From an uncultured Brevundimonas sp. (GTDB taxonomy: Bacteria > Pseudomonadota > Alphaproteobacteria > Caulobacterales > Caulobacteraceae): a stretch of 64,000 nt of DNA. Below are positions 1 through 54,450 of this stretch, piece after piece. Made by a program: the position numbers and the translations under genes. Below the pieces are notes generated by a model. It did not search any database and was not told the DNA's origin. It was given only the letters and a program-made list of their open reading frames with translations. Position 1 is the first letter of the stretch. Each line of letters starts with the position of its first letter. Location of the stretch: assembly GCF_937870815.1 (NCBI RefSeq), contig NZ_CALMZS010000211.1:1-64000 (forward strand). Reading direction: 5' to 3'.

Positions 1-417
1 CTGTGGCTGGCCGCCGACGGCACGGTCAAGCCCTGGGACGGCGACATGGACGACTATGCCCGCTTCGTCCTCGACCGCGCCAAACAGGCGGCGGTGCGGC
101 CGAGCCAGATCAAGGAAGAAGCCGCCGGAAACGCCCCTCAGGCAGCGGGCGCCCGCGGCGCGAGCGATAGGGCCAACAAGAAGAAGTCCGGCCCGTCGCC
201 CTCGACCCTGCGCTACGCCGTACGGAAGGCCGAGGAGCGCGTCCTCGCCCTGACCACCGAACTGGCCCGCCTCGACGACGACATCGCCAACGCCTCGATC
301 GGCAACCCCAGGGCCCTCGAGGGCCTGACCCGCGCCCGGACCAAAACCCAGGCCGACCTCGACGCGGCGGAAGCCGCCTGGATGCAGGCCGAGGAAGCTC
401 TGGCGGAGGTGGGCTGA
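1..417 (+). CDS. ABC-F family ATPase (Uup-like), C-terminal fragment cut by the window edge
   Basis: Frame 1 is open from base 1 (LWLAADGTVKPWDGDMDDYARFVLDR...). This matches the C-terminus typical of ABC-F proteins followed by a coiled-coil tail. Confidence 0.8.
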   Translation: MWLAADGTVKPWDGDMDDYARFVLDRAKQAAVRPSQIKEEAAGNAPQAAGARGASDRANKKKSGPSPSTLRYAVRKAEERVLALTTELARLDDDIANASIGNPRALEGLTRARTKTQADLDAAEAAWMQAEEALAEVG

Positions 418-430
418 CCGGTGCGCCGTT

Positions 431-486
431 CCTTCCCCCCTTGCGGGGGAAGGTGGCCCGCGGAGCGGGTCGGATGGGGGGTGTGA
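431..486 (+). repeat. REP-like palindromic element A (two hairpins)
   Basis: CCTTCCCCC-CTTGC-GGGGGAAGG hairpin, then CCCGC-GGA-GCGGG hairpin, then TCGGATGGGGGGTGTG. An inverted copy is at 871..927. Confidence 0.85.
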
Positions 487-516
487 GCACCGGCCGCTCC
501 CGGCTAAGCTCCACCC

Positions 517-930
517 ATGGCCGTCCACCACGACCGCGCCTACGCCTCTGCGCGTCGCCAGCGCAAAACCCCGACCACCGCCGAAAAGGCGCTGTGGGCG
601 CTCGTCCGTGACCGACAGACCGACAACCTGCGCTTCCGCCGTCAGATGCCCATCGGTCCGTATGTCGCCGACTGCTGCTGCCCTTCGCTCAAGCTCGTGC
701 TCGAAGCCGACGGCGGCGTCCACGTACTGCGAGAGACCGAGGATCAGGCGCGGGACGACTGGCTTCGCTCCCAAGGCTTCGTCATCCTGCGCTTCCCGAA
801 CGAGACGATTCTTGTAAAGCTGAACACCGTCCTCGATGAGATCCGCGCCCATGCCGCCAAGACCGGGGAACACACCCCCCATCCGTCTCGCTCCGCGAGC
901 CACCTTCCCCCGCAAGGGGGGAAGGTGATC
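517..930 (+). CDS. DUF559 domain (Vsr-like endonuclease fold) protein; in-frame with downstream holC (ORF 517..1392)
   Basis: ARRQRKTPTTAEKALWALVRDRQTDNLRFRRQMPIGPYVADCCCPSLKLVLEADGGVH is the DUF559 signature. The ORF continues through repeat B into HolC without a stop. Confidence 0.85.
871..927 (-). repeat. REP-like palindromic element B (inverted copy of A)
   Basis: The reverse complement CACCTTCCCCCCTTGCGGGGGAAGGTGGCTCGCGGAGCGAGACGGATGGGGGGTGTG aligns with element A. Second-stem changes C>T and G>A are compensatory. Confidence 0.85.
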
Positions 931-933
931 AGC

Positions 934-1392
934 ATGACCCCGAAGCCGGAAATCTGGTTCTACCATCTGGAGCGCTCGAGGCTGGACCAGGTGCTGCCCG
1001 GCCTGCTGGAGAAGACCCGCGAACGGGGCTGGCGGGCGCTGGTCCGCGCCGCCGACGAACGGCTGCTCGAGGACATCGACGAGCGGCTGTGGACCTACCG
1101 GGACGACAGCTTCCTCGCCCACGGCGGCGACTCCGGGCCCGAGGCGGCGCGCCAGCCGATCGTGCTGACGCGGGGCGGCGAGAACCCGAACGGCGCTCAG
1201 GCGCTGTTCATCCTGGACGACGCAGAGCTTGGCGATACGAAAGGGTTCGATCGATGTTTCATCATCTTCGACGGCAGGGACGAGGCGGCCCTGGCCTCGG
1301 CCCGGGCGCGCTGGAAGACGCTGAAGGCCGCGGGCGCGAACCTGGCCTACTGGAGACAGTCTCCCGAGGGGCGCTGGGAAAAGGCGGCCTGA
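934..1392 (+). CDS. holC: DNA polymerase III chi subunit
   Basis: MTPKPEIWFYHLERSRLDQVLPGLLEKTRERGWRALVRAADERLLEDIDERLWTYRDDSFLAHG... is typical HolC. ATG at 934. Confidence 0.9.
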   Translation: MTPKPEIWFYHLERSRLDQVLPGLLEKTRERGWRALVRAADERLLEDIDERLWTYRDDSFLAHGGDSGPEAARQPIVLTRGGENPNGAQALFILDDAELGDTKGFDRCFIIFDGRDEAALASARARWKTLKAAGANLAYWRQSPEGRWEKAA

Positions 1393-1703
1393 TCGCCGTG
1401 CTGGCGCTGGCCGGCTGCGAAACGCCGGCCTCGGACGCGTCCGCGCCCCGGGCCGTGGAGGCGGCGCAGATGACCCAGCCGGTCGGGGTCCGCGCCGTCA
1501 GTCCCACCACCGACATGTGCGGGGCCGGCGAGCTGCAGTGGCTGGTCGGGAAACCGAAGACCGACATCCCCGTTCCGGTCGATGTCGTCAATCGCCGGGT
1601 CACCTGCACCACCTGCCCGGTGACCGAGGACTATTCGCCCCACCGTCTGAACATCTTCTTCAACGAACAGACGGAGATCATCGAGCAGGTCCGGTGCGGC
1701 TGA
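1374..1703 (+). CDS. Peptidase inhibitor I78-like lipoprotein, copy 1 (start uncertain)
   Basis: Lipobox LIAVLALAGC. C-terminal I78-like pattern WLVGK...CTTCPVTEDYSPHRLNIFFNEQTEIIEQVRCG. No ATG fits well; a CTG at 1374 is plausible. Confidence 0.6.
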   Translation: MGKGGLIAVLALAGCETPASDASAPRAVEAAQMTQPVGVRAVSPTTDMCGAGELQWLVGKPKTDIPVPVDVVNRRVTCTTCPVTEDYSPHRLNIFFNEQTEIIEQVRCG

Positions 1704-1720
1704 AGCCAGGGGAGACGCCC

Positions 1721-2008
1721 ATGACCGTCCGCTTCACCGGCCTTGCCGCTGTCGGCCTCCTGGCCGCGGCCTGCGCCCCCGTCCCGGCCGCCGCCCCGGC
1801 GCCGGAAGCCGACCTGTCCCCGTGCCGGGCCGACCAGTACCTGGATTTCATCGGCCGCCACCGGTCGGAGCTGCCGCCCCGGCCGGCCGGGGAGGTCTGG
1901 CGCGTCACCTGCACCACCTGCCCCGTGACCATGGATTACAATCCGCGCCGCATGAACGTCCTTTATCAGGCGTCCAGCGGCGTGATCCGCGAAATCAAAT
2001 GCGGTTGA
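1721..2008 (+). CDS. Peptidase inhibitor I78-like lipoprotein, copy 2
   Basis: MTVRFTGLAAVGLLAAAC lipoprotein signal. CTTCPVTMDYNPRRMNVLYQ...IKCG. Confidence 0.75.
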   Translation: MTVRFTGLAAVGLLAAACAPVPAAAPAPEADLSPCRADQYLDFIGRHRSELPPRPAGEVWRVTCTTCPVTMDYNPRRMNVLYQASSGVIREIKCG

Positions 2009-2436
2009 GGACGCTGACGCCCATGGCCGGGGCGCTGATTCTGGCGGGCTGCGCCGAACGGGAGTCGTCGCCGGCCCCGGCGGATGCGGTTCCGGCGGAC
2101 GGGGCCCGGATGGACGGGGCCCGGATGGACGGGGCCCGGATGGACGGGGCCCGGATGGACGGGGCCCGGATGGACGGGGGACCGGCGGCGGCGCCGGCCG
2201 GTCCCCCGTCCGGGAACGGCGCGGCGGCCAGGCCGACCCCGGCCGACTCCTGCGGCGCCGCCGCACGCCAGGACTGGATCGGCCGCGCCCGCGCCGACCT
2301 GCCGTCGCCGCCGCCGGGAGCGGTCTGGCGGGTGTTCGAGACCGGCCAGCCGGTCACCCAGGACCTGCGCCCCGAGCGCCTCGACATCGAGATCGACCCC
2401 GGGCGCCAGGTCGTCGTCCGCCTTCGCTGCGGCTGA
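1999..2436 (+). CDS. Peptidase inhibitor I78-like lipoprotein, copy 3, with GARMD tandem repeat
   Basis: MRLRTLTPMAGALILAGC signal. (DGARM)n repeat, then DWIGRARADLP...PVTQDLRPERLDIEIDPGRQVVVRLRCG. Confidence 0.75.
   Translation: MRLRTLTPMAGALILAGCAERESSPAPADAVPADGARMDGARMDGARMDGARMDGARMDGGPAAAPAGPPSGNGAAARPTPADSCGAAARQDWIGRARADLPSPPPGAVWRVFETGQPVTQDLRPERLDIEIDPGRQVVVRLRCG
2098..2172 (+). repeat. 15-bp tandem repeat, 5 identical units (GACGGGGCCCGGATG)
   Basis: Five perfect in-frame copies read directly. Confidence 0.95.
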
Positions 2437-2623
2437 TCCGTCCGCCGGGATCGCCGATGTGACGGATGTAACGGATGTCCCGGGTCGATGTCGCGGGATT
2501 GTCTCGCATATAGCGACGGATTGTCCCGGTTGTCGCGAAGGATTGTCGCGCATGTCCCGGGTCGAACGGATCGAAATCGTCGTCCCGGCGGGCCGGAAGC
2601 CCGCCCGGGACTGGTCGAAATCG

Positions 2624-4099
2624 TCAGGCCTCGTAGCTGTCCGCCACCATCCGATCGAGGGTGCGGACCCCCCAGCCGACGGCCCCGTCCGGCACGGTCG
2701 GATTCTTGCTCTCCTTGATCCAGGCGGTGGGGGCGATGTCGATGTGCGCCCACGGCACGCCGTTGGTGAAGCGCTGCAGGAACAGGGCGGCGGTGATCGA
2801 GCCGCCGGCCCGGCCGTTGCCGGTGTTCTTCACGTCGGCGATCGGACTGTCGATGTGGCGCTCGTAGGCGTCCGGGATCGGCATGCGCCAGGCGTTTTCG
2901 CCGACCTTGGGCGCGGCGGCGAGGAAGTTGTTGGCCAGCTCGTCCGAGTTCGAGAACACCCCGGCGTATTCGAGGCCGAGGGCCACGATCATGGCCCCGG
3001 TCAGCGTGGCCAGGTCGAGCATGAATTTCGGCTTGAACCGCGCCTGGGCGTACCAGAGGCAGTCGGCCAGAACGAGGCGGCCCTCGGCGTCGGTGTTGAG
3101 CACCTCGACCGACTGGCCGGACAGCGACATGACCACGTCGCCGGGGCGCTGAGCCGCGCCGTCGGGCATGTTCTCGACCAGGCCCAGAACGCCGACGGCG
3201 TTGACCCGGGCCTTGCGGCCCGCCAGCGCGTGCATCAGTCCGGCCACGGCGGCGGCGCCGCCCATGTCCCACTTCATCTCCTCCATGCCGTCGGCCGGCT
3301 TGATGGAGATGCCGCCGGTGTCGAAACAGACGCCCTTGCCGACGAAGGCGATCGGCTGGTCGCCCTTCCGGCCGCCGTTCCATTTGAGGATGGCCACCTG
3401 GCTCTCGCGGACGCTGCCCTGGCCGACCGCGAGCAGGGTGCGGAAGCCGAGCTTTTCGAGCTCCTTCTCGCCGAGGATCTCGACTTCGAGGCCCAGTTTC
3501 TCGAGCCCCTTCACCCGCCGGGCGAACTCTTCCGGATAGAGGACATTGGCCGGCTCGCTGACCAGATCGCGCGAGAACTCGACGGCGTCCGCCACCGGGG
3601 CCAGCCGCTCGTAGGCGGCCTTGGCGGCCTTTACGTCGGCGGCGGCGACCTTGATCGTCTCGATGGACGGCGTCTTCTCCGGCTTCAGCGTGGTGCGGTA
3701 TTTCAGGAACCGGTAGGCGGCGAGGCGGGCGGCGAAGGCGGCCCGGGCGGCCTGGTCGGCGGACAGGTCGCGGGCGTCGATGGTCAGCGAAGCCGCGCCG
3801 GAAAGCTTGACCGCCTGGTAGGCGGCGCCGGCGGCGGTCTCCAGGGCCAGGTCGTCGAACCTGTCCGTCTCGCCCGCGCCGGTCAGGACCACGGTGCCGG
3901 CGTCGATCCCGACGGGCGCCGGGACGACCAGGGTGCTGTTCGACCCGCCCGTGAAGCGGCCGGCGCCCATGGCCCGGGCCAGGGCGCCTGACGTCGCCGC
4001 GTCGTGCTCGGCGCCCCGTCCCTGGAAAGTGCGGCCCTCGTGGACCAGGACGGCCAGCACCTCGGCTTCGCGGGTCGACGCGACGAACTCGATCTTCAT
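2624..4099 (-). CDS. pepA: Leucyl aminopeptidase (M17)
   Basis: PIAFVGKGVCFDTGGISIKPADGMEEMKWDMGGAAAVAG and NTDAEGRLVLADCL metal/active-site motifs. Confidence 0.95.
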   Translation of the reverse strand: MKIEFVASTREAEVLAVLVHEGRTFQGRGAEHDAATSGALARAMGAGRFTGGSNSTLVVPAPVGIDAGTVVLTGAGETDRFDDLALETAAGAAYQAVKLSGAASLTIDARDLSADQAARAAFAARLAAYRFLKYRTTLKPEKTPSIETIKVAAADVKAAKAAYERLAPVADAVEFSRDLVSEPANVLYPEEFARRVKGLEKLGLEVEILGEKELEKLGFRTLLAVGQGSVRESQVAILKWNGGRKGDQPIAFVGKGVCFDTGGISIKPADGMEEMKWDMGGAAAVAGLMHALAGRKARVNAVGVLGLVENMPDGAAQRPGDVVMSLSGQSVEVLNTDAEGRLVLADCLWYAQARFKPKFMLDLATLTGAMIVALGLEYAGVFSNSDELANNFLAAAPKVGENAWRMPIPDAYERHIDSPIADVKNTGNGRAGGSITAALFLQRFTNGVPWAHIDIAPTAWIKESKNPTVPDGAVGWGVRTLDRMVADSYEA

Positions 4100-9061: not shown

Positions 9062-10405
9062 ATGCGTTTTCAGCGTTACTTGACGGGCGTGGCGATCGCC
9101 GCCCTCCTGGCCGGGACGGCCGTGGCCCAGACCGCGCCGCAGGAGCCGGCGGCAGCGGCGGGCACGCTGAACCCGGCGACTGGGCAGGTCCCGCCCGCCG
9201 CGCCAGCCACCGCGCCGCAGTTCCAGATGGCCGACGGCGTCCTGGCCACCGTCAATGACAGCGTCATCACCGGCTTCGACCTGCGCCAACGCATGCTGCT
9301 GCTGATCGCCATGACCCAGGTCCAGCCCACGCCCGAGAACATCCCCGCCATCCAGCAGGAAGCCCTGAACGCATTGATCGACGAACGCCTGCAGATTCAG
9401 GAGCTGGCGAACTACGAGGAGCTCAAGGTCACCGATGCAGAGGTCGGCGAGGAAATCGCCGCCATGGCCCAAGAGGTGGGGGTGACGCCCGAAGCCTATC
9501 TGGCCTTCCTTGAGGCTGGCGGCATTCGCCGCCAGACCCTGCGTGAACAACTCCGCACCCAGATCGGTTGGCAGCGCCTGGTCGGCGGGCGCTTCCAGAG
9601 CCGCGCCCGGGTCAGCAGGGGCGCGGTCGACGCCGCCCTGCGCCAAATCTCCGAGGCCGCCTCCAAGAAGCAGTATCTGATCGGCGAAATCTACATCGAG
9701 GCCGCCCGCGTCGGCGGTCAGCAGGCGGCGATGAACGGGGCTGCCCAGCTGGTCCAGCAGATGGTCCAGGGTGCGCCCTTCCAGAATGTTGCGCAGCAAT
9801 TCTCAGCCGCGCCTTCCGCAGCCCGCGGCGGCGACGCCGGCTGGATTGTCGCCGGCTCCGTCAACCCGGTTCTGCAGGCCGCGATGGATCAACTAGAAGT
9901 TGGCCAGCTTTCACGACCGATTCCGGTCGAGGGGGGCGTGTATATCATCTATATGCGGGACAAGCGGGACGGGGCGGCGGCGAGCCTGGCGCAGCTGAAG
10001 CAGGTCATGATCGAGCTGCCGGAGACGGCGAGCGAGGCGGAGGTGGCGGCGGCCAGCCAGAGGCTGGAGGCCCTGCGGCCGCAGCTGACCTGCGACACCA
10101 TGCTGCAGCGGGCCACGTCGGAGCAGGGGCTGCTCGGCGCCGACCTCGGCGAGGCCGACGTGCAGAGCCTGGCCCCGCAGTTCCAGCCGGTGGCCCGCTC
10201 GGCCCCGGTCGGTGAGGTCAGCACGCCGATCCGCACCCCGCTCGGCCTGCACCTGGTCGCCGTCTGCGGCCGGCGCGTCGGCGGGGTCGAGGCCCCGGAC
10301 CCCCGCGCCGTCGAGAACCAGCTGTTCCGCCAGAACCTCGCCACCCTCGGCCGCCGCTACATGCGCGACCTGCGCGAGGACGCCCTGATCGAGTTCAGGC
10401 AGTGA
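9062..10405 (+). CDS. surA: SurA-like periplasmic peptidyl-prolyl isomerase/chaperone
   Basis: Signal peptide, VLATVNDSVITGFDLRQRMLL N-domain, PPIC-type domain. Located between lptD and pdxA. Confidence 0.85.
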   Translation: MRFQRYLTGVAIAALLAGTAVAQTAPQEPAAAAGTLNPATGQVPPAAPATAPQFQMADGVLATVNDSVITGFDLRQRMLLLIAMTQVQPTPENIPAIQQEALNALIDERLQIQELANYEELKVTDAEVGEEIAAMAQEVGVTPEAYLAFLEAGGIRRQTLREQLRTQIGWQRLVGGRFQSRARVSRGAVDAALRQISEAASKKQYLIGEIYIEAARVGGQQAAMNGAAQLVQQMVQGAPFQNVAQQFSAAPSAARGGDAGWIVAGSVNPVLQAAMDQLEVGQLSRPIPVEGGVYIIYMRDKRDGAAASLAQLKQVMIELPETASEAEVAAASQRLEALRPQLTCDTMLQRATSEQGLLGADLGEADVQSLAPQFQPVARSAPVGEVSTPIRTPLGLHLVAVCGRRVGGVEAPDPRAVENQLFRQNLATLGRRYMRDLREDALIEFRQ

Positions 10406-11400
10406 GCCCGGCCCCGCCGCTGGCCCTGACCATGGGCGAGCCGGCGGGCGTGGGACCCGAGATCATCGCCGCCGCCTGGCGCGCCCTGAACGATGGGGCC
10501 CAGCCCTTCGCCGTGGTCGGCGACGCCGGCCTGATGCGCGCCCAGGGGGTCCCCGTCCAGCCGATCGCCGCCGCCGCCGAAGCCGCCGCCGTGTTCGGCC
10601 GCGCCGTGCCGGTGCTCGACTCCCCCCTGCCCGCCCCGGTGACGGCGGGGCGGCCCGAGCCGGCCAATGCGGGCGCCGTGGCCGACTGGATCGAACAGGC
10701 CGTCAGCCTGGCCCTGGCCGGGGAGGTCGCGGGCCTGGTCACCGCCCCGATCGCCAAGGCGCCCCTGTACGCCGCCGGCTTCCGCTTTCCGGGCCACACC
10801 GAATTCCTCGCCGAACTGACCGCCGACGCCCCCTTCGCCGGGACGCGCGGGCCGGTGATGATGCTGACCGCGAAGGACCTGCGCGCCTGCCTGGTGACCA
10901 TCCATGCGCCGCTGGCCGAGGTCCCCGAACTGGTCACCGCCGAGCGGGTGACCCGCACCGCCCGGGTCGTGCACGAGGCCCTGCGGCGCGATTTCGGCGT
11001 CGCCCGGCCGCGGCTGGCGCTGGCGGCGCTGAACCCCCACGCCGGCGAGGGCGGGGCGCTGGGGCTGGAGGAGATCGAGGTGCTGGCCCCGGCGGCGGCG
11101 GCGCTGCGCCAGGAGGGCATCGACGTCACCGACCCCCGGCCGGCCGACACCCTGTTCCACGACGCGGCGCGGACCGGCTATGACGCGGTGCTGTGCCTGT
11201 ACCACGACCAGGCGCTGATCCCGGTCAAGACGCTGGACTTCTGGGGCGGGGTCAATGCGACCCTGGGCCTGCCGGTGGTGCGCACCTCGCCGGACCACGG
11301 GACCGGGTTCGACATCGCCGGCACGGGCGCGGCCCGGGCGGACAGCCTGATCGCGGCGGTGCGGCTGGCGGGGGAGATGGCGGCGGCTCGGGCGGGGTGA
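10402..11400 (+). CDS. pdxA: 4-hydroxythreonine-4-phosphate dehydrogenase
   Basis: TMGEPAGVGPEII, ALNPHAGEGGALGLEE and LYHDQALIPVKTLDF motifs. Confidence 0.95.
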   Translation: MSPAPPLALTMGEPAGVGPEIIAAAWRALNDGAQPFAVVGDAGLMRAQGVPVQPIAAAAEAAAVFGRAVPVLDSPLPAPVTAGRPEPANAGAVADWIEQAVSLALAGEVAGLVTAPIAKAPLYAAGFRFPGHTEFLAELTADAPFAGTRGPVMMLTAKDLRACLVTIHAPLAEVPELVTAERVTRTARVVHEALRRDFGVARPRLALAALNPHAGEGGALGLEEIEVLAPAAAALRQEGIDVTDPRPADTLFHDAARTGYDAVLCLYHDQALIPVKTLDFWGGVNATLGLPVVRTSPDHGTGFDIAGTGAARADSLIAAVRLAGEMAAARAG

Positions 11401-11450
11401 TCCTCCCCCGCAGGGGGAGGGGGACCATCCGCAGGATGGTGGAGGGGGAC
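11399..11450 (+). repeat. REP-like palindromic element C
   Basis: GATCCTCCCCC-GCA-GGGGGAGG GGG ACCATCC-GCA-GGATGGT GGAGGGGGAC. Confidence 0.85.
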
Positions 11451-11510
11451 TTGGTCCCATCTCCGGTTGAGGCGACTTGCGAACCCGTCGTGCGTCTATA
11501 GGTTGTTCGA

Positions 11511-11885
11511 ATGGACGCACCCGACCTGACCATCGCACGCGCCAGGGAGCTACGCCGCAGGATGTCCCTGCCCGAAGTCCTTCTCTGGAAAGCCGTGCGG
11601 CGGGACAAGCTCGGCGCCCGTTTCAGACGCCAGCACCCGGAGGGCCCGTGGATCCTCGACTTCTATTGCCATGCCGCCCGGCTGGCCGTGGAGATCGACG
11701 GCGCAGGCCATGATGATCCGGACAGGATGCTGCTGGACCGGAAACGCACCCGCTGGTTGGAGCAGCGGGGGATCTCAGTGCATCGGATTCCCGCGCGGGC
11801 GGTGCTGGGGAATCTGGATGGGGTGCTCACCGGGCTGAAAGAGCGGATTGGACGAGGCCCCCTCCACCATCCTTCGGAGGAATAG
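11511..11885 (+). CDS. DUF559 domain (Vsr-like endonuclease fold) protein
   Basis: ARARELRRRMSLPEVLLWKAVRRDKLGARFRRQHPEGPWILDFYCHAARLAVEIDGAGHDDPDR. The C-terminus reads into a repeat. Confidence 0.88.
   Translation: MDAPDLTIARARELRRRMSLPEVLLWKAVRRDKLGARFRRQHPEGPWILDFYCHAARLAVEIDGAGHDDPDRMLLDRKRTRWLEQRGISVHRIPARAVLGNLDGVLTGLKERIGRGPLHHPSEE
11857..11880 (-). repeat. Truncated REP-like element D'
   Basis: GGCCCCCTCCACCATCCTTCGGAGG, a partial copy of the inverted element that supplies the last DUF559 codons. Confidence 0.7.
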
Positions 11886-11910
11886 GGTCCCGCCGGTTGT
11901 GGGGAGGTCA

Positions 11911-11962
11911 GCCCCCCTCCACCATCCTTCGGATGGTCCCCCTCCCCCTGGGGGGGAGGATT
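11911..11962 (-). repeat. REP-like palindromic element D (inverted copy of C)
   Basis: GCCCCCCTCCACCATCCTTCGGATGGTCCCCCTCCCCCTGGGGGGGAGGATT. Confidence 0.85.
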
Positions 11963-52260: not shown

Positions 52261-53337
52261 CTAGACGCCGAGGACATCCGCGACGCGGGCGGCGACGACG
52301 GCGAAGCGGCGGGCCGCCGCGCCGTCGGGGTCGGAGACGACCAGCGGAACGCCGGCGTCGCCCGCCTCGCGCAGGGCGGCGTCGAGCGGCAGGTCGCCGA
52401 GGAAGGGCACGCCGAGGCGTCCGGCCTCGGCCTCGGCGCCGCCCTGTCCGAAGATGTCGCCGGACATGTTCTCGATCAGGCCGAGGGTCGGAACCTCGAC
52501 CTTGCGGAACAGGGTGTGGGCCCGGCGGGCGTCGGCGAGGGCGACCTCCTGCGGCGTGGAGACGATCACCGCCCCGTCCAGCGGGGTCTTCTGGATCAGG
52601 GTCAGCTGGACGTCGCCGGTGCCCGGCGGCAGGTCGACGACCAGCACGTCGAGCGGCCGGTCCGCCGTGCCCCAGCGCGTCTGGGTCAGCATCTGGGTCA
52701 GGGCCTGGGAGGCCATCGGACCGCGCCAGACCATGGCGTCGTCGGCCCCGGTCAGCAGGCCGACCGACATCAGCCTGAGGCCGTGGGCGAGGTGCGGCTC
52801 CATCAGGCCGTCGCGGTATTCCGGCTTGCCGGAGACGCCGAGCATGGTCGGCAGGGAGGGGCCGTAGACGTCGGCGTCGAGCACTCCGACCGACAGGCCG
52901 CGCGCGGCGAGGGCGGCGGCGAGGTTGACGGCGACGGTGGACTTGCCGACCCCGCCCTTGCCCGAGGCGATGGCGAGGACGCGGCGGACATGGGCCGGGC
53001 GGTCGGTGGGGACCGGCGCCTTCGCCCGCGTCTGCTCGACGGCCTGGGGCGAGAGGGAGGCGGTGCGGCCGCGCCGGGTCGCGGGGGCCGCCTCGGCGGT
53101 GAGGACGACCGAGACGCGGGCCATGCCCGGGATGGCCTTCAGCGCGGCCTCGGCGGCGTCGCGGACCGGGGCGTAGAGGGCGGTGTCGCCGGCCGGGACC
53201 TCGATGACGAAGCCGGCGCGGACGCCGTCGGCGGCGACGGTCAGGCCCTGGACGAGGCCGGCGGCGGCCAGACCCCGCCCGCTCTTCGGGTCGATGACGG
53301 CGTCGAGGGCGGCGATGACGGTATCGCGGTCGGGCAT
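52261..53337 (-). CDS. mrp: Mrp/ApbC family Fe-S carrier ATPase
   Basis: VLAIASGKGGVGKSTVAVNLAAALA, DADVYGPSLPTMLG, VDLPPGTGDVQLTL. The upstream ORF extension is repeat-derived. Confidence 0.95.
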   Translation of the reverse strand: MPDRDTVIAALDAVIDPKSGRGLAAAGLVQGLTVAADGVRAGFVIEVPAGDTALYAPVRDAAEAALKAIPGMARVSVVLTAEAAPATRRGRTASLSPQAVEQTRAKAPVPTDRPAHVRRVLAIASGKGGVGKSTVAVNLAAALAARGLSVGVLDADVYGPSLPTMLGVSGKPEYRDGLMEPHLAHGLRLMSVGLLTGADDAMVWRGPMASQALTQMLTQTRWGTADRPLDVLVVDLPPGTGDVQLTLIQKTPLDGAVIVSTPQEVALADARRAHTLFRKVEVPTLGLIENMSGDIFGQGGAEAEAGRLGVPFLGDLPLDAALREAGDAGVPLVVSDPDGAAARRFAVVAARVADVLGV

Positions 53338-53350
53338 CGGCGGTTCCGGT

Positions 53351-53426
53351 TCCCTCTCCCATTGGGAGAGGGCTTGAGCGCACGGCGCCGTCTTTGGCGT
53401 CGTTCTTGCGCGAAAGGGTGAGGGGC
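53351..53426 (+). repeat. REP-like element G1
   Basis: CCCTCTCCCATTGGGAGAGGGCTTGAGCGC...CTTGCGCGAAAGGGTGAGGGG. Confidence 0.85.
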
Positions 53427-53496
53427 AGGATGGTTGGTAGTGTAGGCAGCAACCCACGTGACTGACGCAGCGATCGCTAACCGCCCGACGATGAAA

Positions 53497-53568
53497 CCCC
53501 TCACCCTTTCGCGCAAGTCCGATCGCTCCGCTCCCGGGCGCTCAAGCCCTCTCCCTATGGGAGAGGGC
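53497..53568 (-). repeat. REP-like element G2 (inverted copy of G1)
   Basis: CCCCTCACCCTTTCGCGCAAG...GCGCTCAAGCCCTCTCCCTATGGGAGAGGGC. Confidence 0.85.
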
Positions 53569-54450
53569 GCGCTGATCACCCTGCTGGCCGGCCCGACCGC
53601 CTCGGGCAAGTCGGCGCTGGCGCTGGAGACGGCGGCGCGGACCGGGGCCGTGATCGTCAACGCCGACAGCCAGCAGCTGTACGCCGACCTGCGGGTGCTC
53701 AGCGCCCGGCCGTCGGCGGAGGAGGAGGCGCGGGCCGAGCACCGGCTGTACGGCGTGGCCGACGCCGCCGACGCCTGGTCGGCCGGACGCTGGAGCCGGG
53801 CCGTGGCGCCGGTGCTGGAGGACCTCGCGGCGGCGCGGCGGCCGGCGCTGCTGGTCGGCGGAACGGGATTGTATTTCATGGCCCTTACCAAAGGGTTGGC
53901 TGATATACCGGATGTTCCGATGGAGGTCCGCGAGGCGGCCGGCGCGCTGTACGACCGGCTCGGCGAAACGGCCTTCCGGTCGCGTCTGGCGCGGCTGGAC
54001 CCGGCGGCCGCGGCGCGGATCGAGGCCGGCGACCGGCAGCGGCTGACCCGCGCCATGGCGGTGGCGGAGCATACCGGGCGGGCGCTGAGCGACTGGACGG
54101 CGGAGACCACGCCGCTGCTGGCGCCGGGCTCATGGACCGGGCGGGTGGTCGAGCCGGACCGGGCGACCCTGTACGCCGCCTGCGACGCGCGGGTGGCGCG
54201 GATGGTCGAGGCCGGGGCGCTGGACGAGGTGCGGGGGCTGGTGGCGCGCGGGCTGGATCCCGCCCTGCCGGCGATGAAGGCGGTCGGGGTGCGCGAGTTC
54301 GCCGCCCATCTGGCCGGCGAGACCTCGCTGGCGGCGGCGGTCGAGGCGACCCGGCAGGCGACCCGCAACTACGCCAAGCGGCAGCTGACCTGGTTCCGCA
54401 ACCAGACGCCGGAGTGGGCGCGGCTCGGCGGCGGGGCGGGCCCCGGCTGA
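53557..54450 (+). CDS. miaA: tRNA dimethylallyltransferase
   Basis: [47 protein letters not shown]. Start at 53557 is inferred. Confidence 0.94.

Follow-up and report, generated by a model that had tools for sequence, protein, structure and literature searches.

The intrastrand triplex motifs known as PIT or TM are, under the name PIT elements, reportedly the subject of work by Hoyne from 2000 and 2002. Holder et al. (2015) counted 23 TM copies in E. coli MG1655 and recorded the motif in more than 260 genomes (PMC4666352). The triplex of the E. coli motif, TM_ECO, was established by CD and NMR in vitro on single-stranded DNA, not in vivo, and inverted TM pairs of E. coli always combine a type A motif (TTA loop) with a type B motif (CCG loop) (PMC4666352). 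No mobility gene was found near TMs (PMC4666352), and DUF559 was never mentioned in the PIT/TM literature that we searched. Few bacterial repeats are more widespread than PIT/TM elements, and no enzyme has so far been assigned to their origin and spread.

DUF559 is a large protein family without an accepted function, and we know of no cleavage, binding or transposition by any of its members. The E. coli member YcjD was earlier placed in the PD-(D/E)XK superfamily (PMC1189080). The sole functional study of a DUF559 protein that we found, on Caulobacter VsrA, points to mismatch repair, not mobility; the study treated VsrA as a candidate for mismatch repair with a link to a cytosine methylase and did not consider flanking repeats (PMC12907096). 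In the open-access papers that mention DUF559 and seemed most relevant, we found no link to PIT/TM repeats.

The window, which is the whole 64,000-nt stretch of Brevundimonas-like DNA analyzed here, contains DUF559 genes enclosed by inverted triplex motifs. At the loci compared, gene and motif are associated, the motifs have a preferred orientation, the parts of each motif are coupled in folding, and the cassette is polymorphic in presence and absence among relatives. We consider it fairly probable that end 1, DUF559 and end 2 form a compact mobile cassette with inverted triplex-motif ends, which would be moved by the Vsr-like nuclease in a REPIN-RAYT-like manner without a RAYT.

DUF559 cassettes in the window

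A generic detector, set to 9-nt arms and a mirror tail no more than 45 nt away, finds exactly six elements in the 64-kb window: two around each of two DUF559 genes, and one gene-less inverted pair (Table 1).

Table 1. Features of the two DUF559 cassettes and the gene-less pair in the window.
Feature	Position	Strand	Details
Element A, triplex motif, end 1 of cassette 1	431..481	+	tail directed at gene
Element A, hairpin 1	431-453		CCTTCCCCC-CTTGC-GGGGGAAGG
Element A, hairpin 2	457-469		CCCGC-GGA-GCGGG
Element A, mirror tail	472-481		GGATGGGGGG
DUF559 nuclease gene	517..873	+	119 aa up to element B; domain 541-849
Element B, triplex motif, end 2 of cassette 1	875..925	-	inverted copy of A; tail directed at gene
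Element B, hairpin 1	925-903	-	
Element B, hairpin 2	899-887	-	CTCGC-GGA-GCGAG
Element B, purine tail	884-875	-	
holC (DNA polymerase III chi)	934..1392	+	host gene behind cassette; start ATG 934
Cassette 2, end 1	11401..11448	+	other element type: CCTCCCCC-GCA-GGGGGAGG, long hairpin 2, tail GGAGGGGG
Cassette 2, DUF559 gene	11511..11885	+	124 aa; domain 11535-11843; profile E 4.7e-24
Cassette 2, end 2	11913..11960	-	
Gene-less inverted pair (REPIN-like), end 1	53352..53424	+	CCCTCTCCC..GGGAGAGGG..GGGTGAGGG, long hairpin 2
Gene-less inverted pair (REPIN-like), end 2	53498..53567	-	about 73 bp between ends

The first-pass annotation had described cassette 1 as a DUF559 reading frame between two inverted two-hairpin elements, A and B, and this was borne out. 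The 63-nt arms at 431-493 and 863-925 are inverted repeats with 90% complementarity, both fold as single-stranded DNA into two hairpins apiece (z -2.8 and -3.9), and the enclosed gene matches PF04480. The whole cassette is about 500 bp long. The reading frame had been taken to end before element B, which was wrong. A single uninterrupted frame, 517-1392, encodes the DUF559 domain (aa 9-111; PF04480, E 8.7e-33), then element B (PHPSRSASHLPPQGGK), and then a HolC domain (aa 145-276; PF04364, E 1.1e-34). Element B is thus part of the reading frame and abuts the start of holC, and the frame is likewise uninterrupted in a related Brevundimonas contig (L022). Apart from the holC fusion, the first-pass annotation had missed the PIT/TM identity of the element, the unlike ends, and the reach of the system to other phyla and to E. 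coli ycjD.

A known RNA or CRISPR family was rejected, as Rfam gave nothing near threshold, and so was a defense gene, as PADLOC gave no match. No cytosine methylase was seen on inspection of the annotated ycjD neighbors and the ORFs around window 1-4000. At about 2099-2180 of the window, a small ORF contains about five copies of a 15-mer tandem repeat (ggggcccggatggac).

Cassette 2 (11401-11960) has diverged from cassette 1. It begins one base past the stop codon of the upstream ORF 10402-11400 (PdxA-like by eye). The gene-less pair (53352-53567) is located between divergent genes, Mrp-like on the minus strand (52261-53457) and MiaA-like on the plus strand (53458-54450), both named by eye; the two ORFs overlap the elements of the pair.

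In an alignment of 48 DUF559 proteins, twelve residues are invariant (window numbering): E23, W27, R42, Q43, D52, E63, D65, G66, H69, D76, R79, and R92. The AlphaFold model (pLDDT 89) is closest in Foldseek to gonococcal NGO0050 (3hrl), followed by I-Bth0305I and then by PvuRts1I and Vsr. The match to I-Bth0305I (3r3p) has a Foldseek E-value of 7e-4, a TM-score to the target of 0.74-0.80, and a profile E-value of 0.0016, and the Vsr structures 1cw0 and 1vsr score lower than 3r3p. The Vsr-like fold and the EDxHD layout occur together (E23, D52, E63, D65, and H69). By the model, DUF559 has the fold of Vsr and the EDxHD homing endonucleases, which agrees with the kinship to the Vsr and restriction-nuclease fold named in the first-pass annotation. 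The dN/dS values of DUF559 are mostly about 0.06-0.27, well below 0.3, which indicates that the protein is under purifying selection.

Structure and pairing of the ends

The element was first described as two hairpins. Both hairpins stood, and the description was incomplete: the third part is a purine tail that repeats the 3′ purine arm of hairpin 1 in mirror order, mostly with a T in place of one A. The element types compared for the mirror were CCTTCTCCC..GGATGAGGG, CCTTCCCCC..GGATGGGGG, CCCTCTCCC..GGGTGAGGG, and CCCTCCCCC..GGGTGGGGG. The mirror order of the tail is the geometry expected for a fold-back reverse-Hoogsteen third strand (G.GC, A.AT, and T.AT). Among 119 perfect 8-nt hairpins beside DUF559 genes, 84% have a tail that mirrors at least seven of the eight positions, compared with 14% for shuffled flanks and 30% for arms swapped between elements. 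The mirror combinations at position 3 are C:G (75), T:A (39), and T:T (2), with no other, and those at position 6 are T:A (62), C:G (47), and C:A (5). The tail as an ordinary Watson-Crick partner, that is, a direct copy of the purine arm, was considered and rejected. Direct copies were found in 46% with the element's own arm versus 33% with swapped arms, indicating little real Watson-Crick coupling of the tail.

Hairpin 2 shows another kind of coupling. The compensatory change pointed out in the first-pass annotation (CCCGC/GCGGG versus CTCGC/GCGAG) was confirmed and holds generally. Over 48 distinct elements of the type seen in the window, the hairpin 2 pairs are formed in 96-100%, whereas most slid registers give 0-60%. 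Up to four Watson-Crick types occur per pair, and one pair has C-G, T-A, A-T, and G-C. Hairpin 2 covaries independently of the mirror tail. Each end keeps two coupled structures, a covarying hairpin 2 and a mirror tail of predicted triplex geometry. The covariation check proposed for the stems came out positive and extended to the tail.

The mirror covariation of the tail with hairpin 1 identifies the element as PIT/TM, an intrastrand triplex motif that was already known. The element contains the pyrimidine arm, the complementary purine arm, and the purine strand in mirror order. The short second loop of PIT/TM (1-6 nt) is found in the one-hairpin types, but the window's type has an 18-nt spacer in its place. 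This spacer forms the covarying hairpin, and the window's type is thus an extended PIT/TM variant.

Within a cassette, the ends agree in type and are never identical. None of 1000 shuffles gave ends as similar in type as those of real cassettes, and identical end pairs were found in 0/40 two-sided cassettes. In the window's genome, all 15 one-hairpin pairs combine one YC-linker end with one TT-linker end (chance about 2e-4), and the DUF559 cassette C1:7068-7500 is one of these pairs. The claim that the ends are unlike rests on this set (15/15) and on the published E. coli pairs (5/5); when linker identity was compared across all pairs, the general test of ends always differing did not reach significance (1/90 identical, 3.4 expected). 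Within a genome, the majority of copies form gene-less inverted pairs far from DUF559, with the same end types as the DUF559 cassettes of their genome. One gene-less family in genome G004 has an interior of 71-74 bp in many copies.

Occupied sites, empty sites and the link to DUF559

The first-pass annotation had asked for empty sites, and these exist: the orthologous pepA-holC junction is empty in most relatives and filled in six. In 26 of the 30 loci of the genus that were compared, holC with a short conserved leader comes after pepA, and both element and gene are missing. The cassette is present at pepA-holC in L022, G046, G011, G028, and G055, and in the window it likewise precedes holC, with a gene other than pepA upstream. 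At least three gains or losses on well-supported branches of the holC tree are needed to explain the filled state. One filled allele (G046) stands among near-identical empty relatives. Its DUF559 is broken by in-frame stop codons, so this allele could have come in by homologous recombination. The insertion at pepA-holC replaces 15-30 nt of the junction, including part of the leader. No target-site duplication was resolved at pepA-holC or at E. coli tktB-ypfG, and no genome with several near-identical DUF559 cassettes was found. Related DUF559 proteins (75-77% amino acid identity) are encoded in unrelated flanks.

Deinococcus plasmids (L273, L276, and L280) have cassettes at three different junctions of the hpa operon (hpaB-hpaE region), and also inside a paa operon. 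The element tails at the hpa junctions are directed outward, opposite to Brevundimonas.

Occupied and empty alleles of one site in scattered lineages would also be produced by a homing-type selfish gene, and I-Bth0305I is the nearest solved functional relative of DUF559. Here, a free-standing EDxHD endonuclease would cut unoccupied sites, the motifs would be halves of the cut site or borders that promote repair, and the gene-less pairs would be scars of lost cassettes. We regard this as unlikely. Homing spreads within one site, but cassettes and gene-less pairs are found at many unrelated sites, which argues against pure homing. In addition, the empty pepA-holC junctions have no element at all, and the fixed 71-74 bp interior is unexpected from random decay.

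The association reaches E. coli as well. The ycjD gene of MG1655 (b1289) encodes DUF559 (E 1.4e-49). A TM lies immediately downstream of it, and this element matches TM_ECO. Strain MMC-J-0066 has a longer ycjD allele with an inverted TM pair, in which the second TM is intact. The K-12 arrangement at fabI-sapF is found in 3363/5426 genomes. In B2/E strains, the eef efflux operon replaces ycjD and the motif (L198 and L199 versus L083). We therefore rejected ycjD as a clean empty site, since strains without ycjD have the eef operon instead (PMC12817139). At tktB-ypfG, some E. coli strains (L200 and L281) have a triplex motif where most (including L282-L284) have a classical REP/BIME. The TM and REP alleles share identical flanks, and this site was rejected as a clean insertion.

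The association between DUF559 and the elements is nearly certain. We sampled 60 DUF559 loci, 20 within the genus and 40 in other Pseudomonadota, selecting them on HMM score and on how complete the domain was, without regard to their flanks. An element lies within 300 bp of DUF559 in 60/60 loci and on both sides in 40/60. As controls we took 1229 pseudo-gene positions of the same regions at distances above 1.8 kb. These positions are not mutually independent and give 56/1229 on either side and 0/1229 on both sides. The enrichment anticipated in the first-pass annotation is thus very large. The tails are directed inward in 33/40 two-sided cassettes. In alphaproteobacterial genomes with a strong DUF559, the motif pattern is present in 22/25 (668 copies), as against 6/71 (19 copies) in those without, so that a few elements persist where DUF559 is not detected. 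Copy number depends on DUF559 presence with a Fisher p of 2.5e-13, and of 9e-6 within genomes of about 3 Mb or more. The highest count seen in the class sample was 256 motif matches in a genome with three DUF559 genes (G105). With relaxed settings, elements occur near DUF559 in 13/13 loci of other phyla, a small sample reached mainly via plasmid records. These include cyanobacterial and Deinococcus plasmids, a Saprospiraceae contig, and a Verrucomicrobiales contig; the two Picosynechococcus records have arms made almost wholly of C and G, which leaves the mirror uninformative for them.

These counts also bear on whether DUF559 is a passenger. According to a proposal made for TM_ECO, the motifs may stall replication and provoke rearrangement; small genes would then collect there, and DUF559 would be inactive on the motifs. 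The variability of TM loci among E. coli strains (PMC4666352) and the replacement of classical REP by TM at tktB-ypfG would suit such hot spots. Nevertheless, this is decidedly unlikely, because one gene family is enclosed almost exclusively: DUF559 is inside 49/53 non-redundant tails-inward inverted pairs with a 230-1600 bp interior, a figure biased by the sampling of loci around DUF559. RAYT-type genes of the same genomes have no elements. The matching of the ends within each cassette, their orientation, and the dependence of copy number on DUF559 also argue against it.

It is very improbable that the motifs are regulatory borders, acting as terminators or autoregulatory sites of a VsrA-like host repair nuclease and kept by selection on expression. 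The elements lie close to the gene (median distance 38 nt upstream and about 20 nt downstream), and one DUF559 protein, Caulobacter VsrA, has a host phenotype, both as this explanation would have it. Against it, most copies are far from DUF559, and PIT/TM elements had neither promoter nor terminator activity in earlier work as reported in PMC4666352. Unlike ends, gene-less pairs, and empty sites would also go unexplained. A classical REP-RAYT system with its RAYT elsewhere in the genome and DUF559 as an incidental neighbor is hardly tenable: the window's genome has one Y1_Tnp match, but this gene and 28 other Y1_Tnp loci of the same class sample (PF01797, RAYT-type) have no nearby elements (0 at 29 loci), on which the RAYT explanation was rejected, and element-rich genomes are often without Y1_Tnp (G004, G072, G101, G105, and G153).

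Proposed mechanism and comparison with known systems

The first-pass annotation had placed DUF559 in the role of a RAYT. Enrichment, empty sites, and covariation all came out in favor of this analogy, and it is thus well founded at the genomic level. The recognition, cutting, and moving of the elements by DUF559 we infer from the REPIN-RAYT analogy and from the fold. Mobilization of the cassette by DUF559 is probable on the same analogy. DUF559, as a Vsr-like nickase or endonuclease, would recognize the pair of unlike ends once these have folded in a DNA single strand, such as the lagging strand. Nicking at or beside the motif may then lead to excision or copying of the enclosed DNA, and repair or recombination would complete the insertion at intergenic sites. 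Acting in trans, DUF559 could spread gene-less end pairs in a REPIN- or MITE-like way. In this mechanism, a Vsr-fold nuclease would replace the Y1 HUH transposase, and triplex motifs would replace simple hairpins.

We lean slightly toward a broader claim, that DUF559 is a transposase-like enzyme of triplex repeats, which recognizes two unlike ends and moves its own gene and gene-less pairs in a class of minimal mobile DNA. This would account for the PIT/TM repeats of hundreds of bacterial genomes, from E. coli to cyanobacteria. The link merges two questions, the spread of the repeats and the function of DUF559, into one testable system, and ycjD of K-12 makes it testable in E. coli. If true, this would be a type of mobile element with triplex-capable ends and an enzyme of a repair and homing fold. 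It would also bear on genome reshaping by repeats and on the view of Caulobacter VsrA as a pure repair enzyme.

Among known systems, PIT/TM elements share with the present elements the pyrimidine arm, the purine arm and the mirror purine tail, the intergenic location, and the inverted pairs of two unlike types. They differ in that the literature reports no mobility gene or neighbor class for them, whereas the elements here bracket DUF559. Many elements here also have a covarying second hairpin instead of a short loop, and their copy number follows DUF559. The gene-less pairs resemble MITEs, short non-autonomous DNA with the terminal repeats of an autonomous element, in sharing their end types with DUF559 cassettes of the same genome.

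The Vsr-like nucleases offer a comparison for the enzyme. I-Bth0305I and Vsr share the nuclease fold with DUF559 and have a comparable catalytic layout. DUF559, at about 115 aa, is without the long DNA-binding extension of I-Bth0305I, and its cassettes are at many sites. Unlike Vsr, DUF559 here is not beside a cytosine methylase, as judged from annotated ORFs. YcjD and VsrA belong to the same Pfam family as the DUF559 of the window. IS200/IS605 elements resemble the cassette in having unlike left and right ends, structured in single-stranded DNA, around a small enzyme gene. They are defined by a Y1 transposase and directly oriented structured ends, whereas the cassette has PF04480, inverted ends, no Y1 domain, no TnpB, and no known target tetranucleotide.

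The closest parallel in operation is REPIN-RAYT. In both, inverted short palindromic repeats flank one nuclease-type gene, inverted pairs without the gene occur elsewhere and would be served in trans, and the ends are matched to their gene. The enzyme here is a PD-(D/E)XK protein of the Vsr fold (PF04480), not a Y1 HUH protein (PF01797), the element is a triplex motif, and Y1 loci of the same genomes have no element. No constant tag of the GTAG/CGTC type was seen on inspection; the elements inspected begin with CCYTC and end in the purine tail. The system works like REPIN-RAYT and is not a member of it, since its enzyme is not of the Y1 type. We rate it as new in kind because the two parts were not known to belong together and the enzyme is of another class. 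The repeat itself is already known as PIT/TM; its link to DUF559 is new.
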